Of a stretch of 20,287 nt of DNA, positions 1,780 to 7,664 are shown piece after piece. Below the pieces are notes generated by a model. It was not told the DNA's origin and did no database searches. It saw only the letters and a program-made list of their open reading frames with translations. This DNA comes from a virus. Where the stretch lies: IMG/VR virus record IMGVR_UViG_3300030085_003046, positions 392 through 20,678 of that record, one strand, 5' to 3'. Each line of letters starts with the position of its first letter. Positions within the stretch are counted from its first letter, which is position 1. The position numbers and the translations under genes are program-made.

Positions 1780-1920
1780 ATGGATTTAGAAGAAGTTCTT
1801 CACAATTTAGAAGAAGCGAAAGAATTACAAGATTGGGATATGATAGATGAATGTATCGAATCTATCAGAGTTCTAATAGATGATTTTGATGAATATCAAA
1901 ACGAAGAAGATTGGGGCTGA
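1780..1920 (+). CDS. 46-residue acidic helical protein whose stop lies in the tmRNA
   Basis: This is a 46-codon ORF with a good ribosome binding site (ACGAGG ending six bases before ATG). The product is very acidic, leucine/isoleucine-rich and probably one or two amphipathic helices: E4-E5, L7-x2-L10, and a D/E-rich C terminus ending DWG. Its last codons, Trp-Gly-stop, overlap the first eight bases of the tmRNA (GGGGCTGA at 1913-1920), so the tmRNA 5' end supplies the TGA. TGA is otherwise unused among the genes called here. Function unknown; it could be read from the same transcript as the tmRNA precursor, in which case RNase P cleavage would remove its stop codon. Confidence 0.6.
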   Translation: MDLEEVLHNLEEAKELQDWDMIDECIESIRVLIDDFDEYQNEEDWG

Positions 1921-2325
1921 ACGGTATCGACAGGTGTTATTTGACAACAGAGTGCAGCAGAGATTGAGTAGGTCTCGTTACAAAATACTCACAAACCTAA
2001 ATGGCGAAAAATCGCTACAAGGGTTGGAAATCGATTGGCATCTAGCCAATGCTGAAATGGGATTTGACAACTTCGTTGAACCTGTTTCTGATTCTCAACC
2101 AACTCACGTTTACGCGTAAGTTACTGAGTCGTCTAACACTCGGTCATAAAATAAGTTAGACACCAACTCTTTCGTATTAGAGTATAAAGAAATATCAGTT
2201 AAACTATTCTGTGTAAAATAGGACATAGTGGTTTGTTGATTTCTACTGATTTGAAATCAAACTAAGCTGTAAATGACTCTTTGGAGAAAACAAACTGGAC
2301 GTGGGTTCGAATCCCACCAGCTCCA
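1913..2325 (+). ncRNA. ssrA: Transfer-messenger RNA (tmRNA), one-piece, phage-encoded
   Basis: tmRNA rescues stalled ribosomes and adds a degradation tag. The tRNA-like ends are clear. The acceptor stem pairs GGGGCTG (1913-1919) with CAGCTCC (2318-2324), including the G3-U70 wobble that alanyl-tRNA synthetase recognises. The T arm is GTGGG-TTCGAAT-CCCAC, with discriminator A2325 and no encoded CCA. Pseudoknot 1 pairs GAGAT/GTCTC (1960-1964/1972-1976) and TGAGTA/TACTCA (1965-1970/1986-1991). Pseudoknot 2 pairs 2123-2129/2138-2144 and 2131-2137/2155-2161. Pseudoknot 3 pairs 2166-2169/2180-2183 and 2170-2173/2189-2192. Pseudoknot 4 pairs 2204-2208/2217-2221 and 2209-2213/2224-2228. P2 is formed by GAGTGCAGC and the ACTAAGCTGTA region. 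An extra hairpin (GATTTC/GAAATC) lies at about 2238-2259. At 413 nt it is longer than the roughly 360-nt E. coli molecule, mainly because of the tag region. Confidence 0.95.
2003..2119 (+). other. Probable tmRNA tag reading frame, 38 codons
   Basis: The likely resume codon is GGC at 2003-2005. It lies 11 bases after pseudoknot 1, the same spacing as in E. coli, and has U at -5 and A at -4, matching the conserved U85-A86 pair before the E. coli resume codon. From there the frame reads GEKSLQGL, continues through an internal hairpin (ATTGGC/GCCAAT around 2035-2051) and ends in THVYA followed by TAA at 2117-2119. The tag would be 38 residues, far longer than the usual 8 to 20 or so. The alternative +1 frame from GCG at 2004 would give 13 residues ending in IGI, but its upstream bases fit the rule less well. 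Confidence 0.6.
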
Positions 2326-2391
2326 CAAAAATTAATTTTATACTTTTGTAGTGTAAACAGATATTTATTAATAACAAATGAAAAGGTAACT

Positions 2392-7401: not shown

Positions 7402-7474
7402 GGGGCTGTAGCTCAGTTGGGAGAGCATCTCGTTTGCACCGAGAAGGTCGCAGGTTCGACTCCTGTCAGCTCCA
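7402..7474 (+). tRNA. tRNA-Ala (anticodon TGC)
   Basis: The acceptor stem pairs GGGGCTG with CAGCTCC and has the G3-U70 pair that marks alanine tRNAs; the same stem sequence is found in the tmRNA. The D arm (GCTC/GAGC), anticodon stem TCTCG/CGAGA with loop TTTGCAC (anticodon TGC), and T arm GCAGG-TTCGACT-CCTGT are all clear. Discriminator A7474; CCA not encoded. First of three tRNAs in tandem. Confidence 0.96.
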
Positions 7475-7478
7475 CAAT

Positions 7479-7550
7479 GGCCCGTTCGTCTAGTGGTTAG
7501 GACTCAGGATTTTCATTCCTGCAACAGGAGTTCGATTCTCCTACGGGCTA
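7479..7550 (+). tRNA. tRNA-Glu (anticodon TTC)
   Basis: The acceptor stem pairs GGCCCGT (7479-7485) with ACGGGCT (7543-7549), the first pair being G-U. The anticodon stem CAGGA/TCCTG holds the loop TTTTCAT, anticodon TTC. The T arm is AGGAG-TTCGATT-CTCCT. Discriminator A7550, no encoded CCA. Only four bases separate it from tRNA-Ala, so the two are probably cut from one transcript. Confidence 0.94.
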
Positions 7551-7582
7551 CTAAATTAGGTTACAAATGAATGTAGTCAAAA

Positions 7583-7655
7583 GCCAGAGTAGCTCAGTTG
7601 GTAGAGCAAGTGATTTGTAATCACTAGGTCGTAGGTTCGAATCCTATCTCTGGCT
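7583..7655 (+). tRNA. tRNA-Thr (anticodon TGT)
   Basis: The acceptor stem pairs GCCAGAG with CTCTGGC. The D arm is GCTC/GAGC, the anticodon stem AGTGA/TCACT with loop TTTGTAA (anticodon TGT), and the T arm GTAGG-TTCGAAT-CCTAT. Discriminator T7655, CCA not encoded. Last of the cluster, nine bases before the A-run of the terminator. Confidence 0.96.
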
Positions 7656-7664
7656 CACATAAAC

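Follow-up and report, generated by a model that had tools for sequence, protein, structure and literature searches.

Does a tmRNA gene on a tailed-phage contig really specify a peptide tag of 38 codons, and if it does, what might so long a tag be for? The tags added by tmRNAs normally have about 10 residues and are conserved mainly at the degron end. The gene in question lies in a 20,287-nucleotide stretch of DNA (the window, to whose positions and plus strand all coordinates below refer unless a locus is named) from the 29.8-kb IMG/VR virus record IMGVR_UViG_3300030085_003046, and the window carries tailed-phage genes that include a baseplate gp25 homologue and a peptide deformylase. A sequence-only reading had proposed a one-piece tmRNA with both tRNA-like ends, an alanine identity pair, four pseudoknots and a tag of 38 codons (GEKSL...THVYA) with an internal stem in its middle. 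It also allowed that the wrong resume codon had been chosen.

The tmRNA itself is well supported. The Infernal search with the tmRNA model that had been proposed as a check gave a clear match, in which cmscan aligned window positions 1913-2328 to positions 1-374 of Rfam RF00023 with 93.7 bits (E 1e-35), compared with a gathering score of 47. RF00023 was also matched in eight further viral homologues and in L123, a member found in a bacterial genome assembly, which were all of those run against Rfam. The gene (1913-2328) consists of tRNA-like ends and an mRNA-like domain, and its acceptor and T-arm covary across 28 aligned sequences. The 5' acceptor strand GGGGCTG (1913-1919), which contains G3 of the G3.U70 pair, forms seven of seven pairs with the 3' acceptor strand CAGCTCC (2318-2324); the latter belongs, with the T-arm GTGGG/CCCAC and the discriminator A2325, to a segment at 2301-2325 that is supported by the RF00023 match and the alignment. 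The alanine-identity pair G3.U70 (1915.2322) is kept in 28/28 aligned sequences, while acceptor pairs 4 and 6 show compensatory changes in relatives and leave the G.U pair unchanged. The 3' CCA is not encoded in the window, where CAA is found instead, nor in the other members read. The full-model match and the covarying acceptor and T-arm thus uphold the one-piece assignment, and the 7-bp acceptor and invariant G3.U70 uphold the tRNA-like ends and alanine identity.

The four pseudoknots fared less evenly. PK1 (1960-1990) is composed of GAGATT 1960-1965 paired with GGTCTC 1971-1976 and GAGTA 1966-1970 paired with TACTC 1986-1990, and in a shuffle test 33 of 36 sequences did better than at least 39 of 40 shuffles, with 12 distinct sequences of the first stem and 6 of the second. 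PK2 (2123-2161) is composed of ACTGAGT 2123-2129 paired with ACTCGGT 2138-2144 and GTCTAAC 2131-2137 paired with GTTAGAC 2155-2161; all 35 of 35 sequences did better than at least 39 of 40 shuffles, and the stems occur as 8 and 10 distinct sequences. These two pseudoknots flank the tag, and each has several compensated stem versions. The region of PK3 and PK4 aligns poorly between members, and both are possible pseudoknots.

Relatives were obtained in several ways. The neighbouring 482-aa gene led to the first of them, namely L004/L005 and L006, which have the same tmRNA, and L003, which has its 3' end. Searching with a DNA pattern taken from the mid-tag region, and afterwards with a tag profile, extended the family to 45 virus loci, with one additional member in the metagenome-assembled genome (MAG) contig L123, assigned to bacterium TMED198. 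Upon removal of copies, about 35 different nucleotide tags remained, encoding 34 different peptides of 35-40 aa with the consensus (G/S)D[KN]SLxGLxIDWHLANxEMGFDNFVEPxxDxQPTYAYA(A). The L123 tag is the most divergent (35 aa, with the insert partly replaced by EYDYSPMVPVSNDEP), and its contig is phage-like in appearance. TMED198 was considered as a host and set aside, as a single member in a MAG contig could be a binning accident. The tag peptide matched none of 50,697 annotated phage records and nothing meaningful in Pfam, PHROGs or PDB sequences, and when the tmRNA was compared with the phage collection at the nucleotide level, just short T-arm matches to tRNAs and other tmRNAs came up.

These homologues allow the reading frame to be judged. 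In the window, the tag frame (2003-2119) starts at the resume codon GGC (2003-2005), continues for 38 codons and stops at TAA (2117-2119), giving the peptide GEKSLQGLEIDWHLANAEMGFDNFVEPVSDSQPTHVYA; it is conserved in about 35 homologues. The base at -4 of the resume codon (1999), equivalent to A86, which sets the frame in E. coli tmRNA (PMC2481249), is A in 35/35 distinct sequences. Full-length members have their resume codon 89-94 bases in from the 5' end, and the conserved peptide begins there. Tags have 35, 36, 38, 39 or 40 codons, every length change being one of whole codons. Variability is highest at third codon positions (0.29 vs 0.18 and 0.14), and pN/pS is 0.40 for the pooled tags and 0.23 for the last codons. 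Translational bypass of the insert was dropped as an explanation because the insert is conserved as codons.

Two readings of this frame compete with a tag that begins at GGC. If the resume codon had been misjudged, the true tag would be the 13-codon +1 frame, AKNRYKGWKSIGI; the run of A at -4 to -2 makes the A rule alone ambiguous on frame, and the hairpin at the resume codon, described below, could influence it. In the homologues, however, the +1 frame runs for 5 to 28 codons and yields no common peptide, and the +2 frame runs for 0 to 17, whereas peptide, multiple-of-three lengths and stop position are all kept in the 0 frame. A conserved +1 frame beside an unconserved 0 frame had been named in advance as what would speak against the 38-codon tag, and the comparison went the other way, leaving a misjudged resume codon highly improbable. 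Alternatively, the ORF could be an ordinary small gene with its own start that overlaps a tmRNA-like RNA, as the frame is open upstream in the window and has TTG and GTG codons there. Yet 11 of 33 tmRNAs have an upstream in-frame stop, as near as codon -2 in L094 and L105, and downstream of that stop no start codon occurs ahead of the resume codon, which means that in these members the conserved frame can be entered by trans-translation only; with the conserved peptide starting at the resume position, 89-94 bases in, a separate small gene is, if anything, even harder to credit. The comparison shows that translation on the tmRNA resumes at GGC(2003) and that the 38-residue frame is maintained as a peptide, and we are highly confident, on grounds of sequence, that the gene is a genuine one-piece tmRNA with a translated long tag.

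The coding segment is also folded. Helices within it were sought with RNAalifold and pair counts and compared with slid controls; the three helices together had 99.4% of cells paired, vs 16 to 47% in the controls, and the folding z of the tag region in the window is -3.86. The first sits at the resume codon, a hairpin of GGCGA 2003-2007 with TCGCT 2012-2016 (2003-2016), which has 100% of cells paired in 30 sequences and a compensatory pair, GACGA/TCGTT, in L110 and L111. The second, GGTTGG 2022-2027 with TCAACC 2095-2100 (2022-2100; 98.9% of cells paired), closes the extra coding segment and is nearly invariant, so covariation speaks neither for nor against it. The third is the internal hairpin ATTGGC 2034-2039 with GCCAAT 2045-2050 (2034-2050; 99.4% paired) that had been noticed in the window alone. 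It is conserved in the family and shows double changes on separate tree branches, ACTGGC/GCCAGT in L094 and ACTGGC/GCTGGT in L106, L113 and L117; compensatory changes on at least two branches mark this stem as a genuine RNA element.

Since the ORF holds three helices, the internal stem is compensated and the TCG, GGG, TTG and TGG codons are invariant, the middle segment might have been selected purely as RNA structure, a spacer or folding module, and its peptide be incidental. This we consider unlikely in view of codons 19-26, eight codons outside the three helices, where pS is 0.55 and pN 0.15 (ratio 0.27); in addition, indels stay in frame, and the codons for I, H, L, A, F, D and V often vary synonymously. 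A translated, selected peptide is the preferred reading for the segment, although part of the conservation of codons 1-17 may be at the RNA rather than the peptide level.

In the tmRNA database, tags of 10 aa are the most frequent (PMC11915505). As a sample of our own, 108 tmRNAs called by ARAGORN were collected via a 5'-end pattern, nearly all from IMG/VR and a few from the TMED198 MAG; the mode of tag length was again 10 and the maximum was 31, a maximum that is limited by ARAGORN itself. The 38 codons of the window therefore make a tag much longer than usual, as had been claimed, and the tags of the family, with 35-40 residues, exceed the usual length roughly fourfold. Running ARAGORN had been the second proposed check, and on the full window the program did not report the tmRNA. 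When codons were removed in silico from the window tag, it called the gene at 32 codons or fewer and at none longer, and then placed the same resume codon and the same GEKSL start. Hence ARAGORN misses the full-length gene because the tag is too long, and agrees on the resume codon once the tag is short enough. Applied to 30 family members, it found 4, none of them with the full or right tag. ARAGORN is widely used for phage tmRNAs, and with so few members recovered, surveys based on it will have missed genes like these.

Other long tags were seen on virus contigs. Tags of 27-31 aa occur in L148, L222, L226, L228, L200, L215, L143 and L214, such as ANASKGEVTVSGKGIRFSARTAQRQTLAV in L148 and AKNVVDFASRVASKIADVVAPAPAFALAA in L214, with ends LAV or LAA; several share an SGKxxxFSARTAQRQxLAV-like pattern that is unrelated to the present family. 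Long tags as such are accordingly not unique to it. These tmRNAs resemble ours in being carried by virus contigs and having tags well above 20 aa, but differ in that the sequences are unrelated and that L148 and its relatives are called permuted (two-piece) by ARAGORN. A tag conserved at 35-40 aa and with RNA structure inside it was encountered in none of the other tmRNAs compared here.

Against bacterial ssrA (RF00023), the family has the same G3.U70 acceptor, T-arm, PK1, PK2 and A at -4, a resume codon roughly 90 bases into the RNA and a helix that holds the stop codon at the end of the tag ORF. It differs in its tag, of 35-40 codons with a structured extra coding segment vs about 10 codons in ssrA, and in the 3' CCA, which is not encoded in the members read here. 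A 2009 paper by Ge and Karzai is reportedly concerned with the extended tmRNA tag of Mesoplasma and Mycoplasma that is read by Lon. The tag of Mesoplasma florum, AANKNEENTNEVPTFMLNAGQANYAFA, has 27 aa and is recognized specifically by the Lon protease of that organism (PMC9097571; PMC3985003). It is likewise long, and its -YAFA end is near the -YAYA end of the phage family; it is, however, cellular, shorter at 27 aa and Lon-recognized in a lineage without ClpXP, and its body, the end excepted, has no evident sequence similarity to the phage tag. This Lon-directed tag is the nearest precedent for an extended degron.

Phage tmRNAs have been described in the mycobacteriophages Bxz1 and relatives and Wildcat and in Bacillus phage G (PMC4131195). 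The OM43 phage Melnitz has a two-piece tmRNA, and 402 of 18,146 phage genomes were found to have a tmRNA (PMC9004378). The present gene is similar in being a tmRNA on a tailed phage that presumably works with host SmpB. Melnitz and most of the two-piece phage tmRNAs of that survey are marine or aquatic, whereas the present tmRNA is one-piece, and the survey relied on ARAGORN, which fails on this family. Two further virus contigs (L194:4019-4084 and L131:842-907) carry tmRNA-like RNAs of about 66 bases that have the tRNA-like domain only and in this resemble the TLD-only tmRNA described in mycobacteriophage DS6A.

As for the surroundings of the gene, most loci have a small acidic ORF that runs up to the tmRNA 5' end, and a gene for a protein of about 175 aa comes next on the downstream side. 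In the window this ORF (46 aa; 1780-1920) has its stop codon TGA at 1918-1920, overlapping the tmRNA 5' end, and a homologous ORF is upstream in 28 loci. We rejected it as a dedicated partner of the tmRNA: it stands in the same place in relatives without tmRNA, such as L007, and its position at the tmRNA 5' end is occupied in some members by another gene (a cold-shock-like protein, a protein resembling IMP dehydrogenase and others). It is therefore a mere neighbour outside the tmRNA. L007 (3549-4290) is a close relative whose neighbouring gene is 80% identical; there this gene comes directly after the acidic ORF, and such a natural tmRNA-free site implies that the tmRNA has been cleanly gained or lost within the phage group. 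In members arranged like the window, the message of the acidic ORF would lose its stop codon upon RNase P processing. A non-stop message made in this manner was rejected as an explanation, since in many members the ORF ends ahead of the tmRNA and the arrangement is thus not conserved. The same phage has other translation-related genes, namely the peptide deformylase (1081-1731) and, in the ARAGORN run, a cluster of tRNA-Ala, tRNA-Glu and tRNA-Thr (7402-7656).

What the tag does can be approached through its C terminus. The family mostly ends in YAYA or YAYAA, with YANA, YAYTA, YAFA (one member) and HVYA as the other ends; these are alanine- and aromatic-rich and degron-like, and while not ALAA they resemble the canonical YALAA and the Mycoplasma YAFA. 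The VYA ending of the window had been taken as a pointer to escape from ClpXP, an idea that loses its footing when the family ends are seen to be mostly of this ALAA/YAFA-like kind. A tmRNA with the short tag ADYGYAAAA is encoded by the TMED198 MAG itself. The tags of 12 relatives have 9 aa, and one of these, ADNYGMAYA from a bacterial relative, ends in AYA, so a non-ALAA end argues only weakly for escape from proteolysis. The tag may instead redirect proteins to a different protease or adaptor, or the tmRNA may compete with host ssrA. SmpB, ClpP and Lon (Lon_C) were not found in the 30 phage contigs searched, any of which may be a fragment, and lack of a phage-borne SmpB is expected if host SmpB is used. 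An AlphaFold2 model of the tag, with a single short helix at residues 12-18, had a mean pLDDT of 59 and was set aside for its low confidence.

We propose that the tmRNA is used during infection, when it would be alanylated by the host alanyl-tRNA synthetase and delivered with host SmpB. The charged tmRNA would enter stalled ribosomes and append alanine and the long tag to the stalled protein, which would then carry Ala followed by GEKSLQGLEIDW and the rest of the tag. The peptide is built from tmRNA-like ends (GDKSL... and ...TYAYA(A)) around an inserted conserved middle, xGLxIDWHLANxEMGFDNFVEPxxDxQP, and its RNA folds as well, through the resume-codon hairpin, the closing helix and the internal hairpin. 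An AAA+ protease could bind the alanine-rich C terminus, and the middle part, being conserved, could make a second contact, with the protease or an adaptor, so that truncated proteins would be cleared efficiently, or by another protease than the host tag would choose. That the tag functions as such an extended, multipart degron or adaptor tag is a suggestion by analogy to which we give slightly less than an even chance; the explanation as a whole, a tmRNA with a translated long tag acting as an extended degron, we hold to be moderately probable.

The tag could instead be a stabilizing, inhibitory or localizing peptide that shields stalled proteins from host proteases or redirects them. It is longer and more conserved than a C-terminal degron requires, its end is not ALAA, and the MAG that carries one member has a much shorter tag of its own; but a C terminus such as TYAYA, YAYAA or YAFA is alanine- and aromatic-rich in the manner of known degrons, and the AYA end occurs in a bacterial relative of that MAG, and we find a non-degron role rather unlikely. 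More speculatively, and with some doubt on our part, the tag may be a phage effector, whose middle motif would bind and pass stalled proteins, of host or phage origin, to a particular protease or adaptor (or block one), and whose hairpins would tune ribosome passage.

In this family, a phage clade keeps a tag of 35-40 residues under purifying selection, with RNA structure within the coding part, which suggests that phages evolve their own ribosome-rescue tag carrying extra information. If the tag is indeed an effector, the phage would rewire the fate of every rescued protein.
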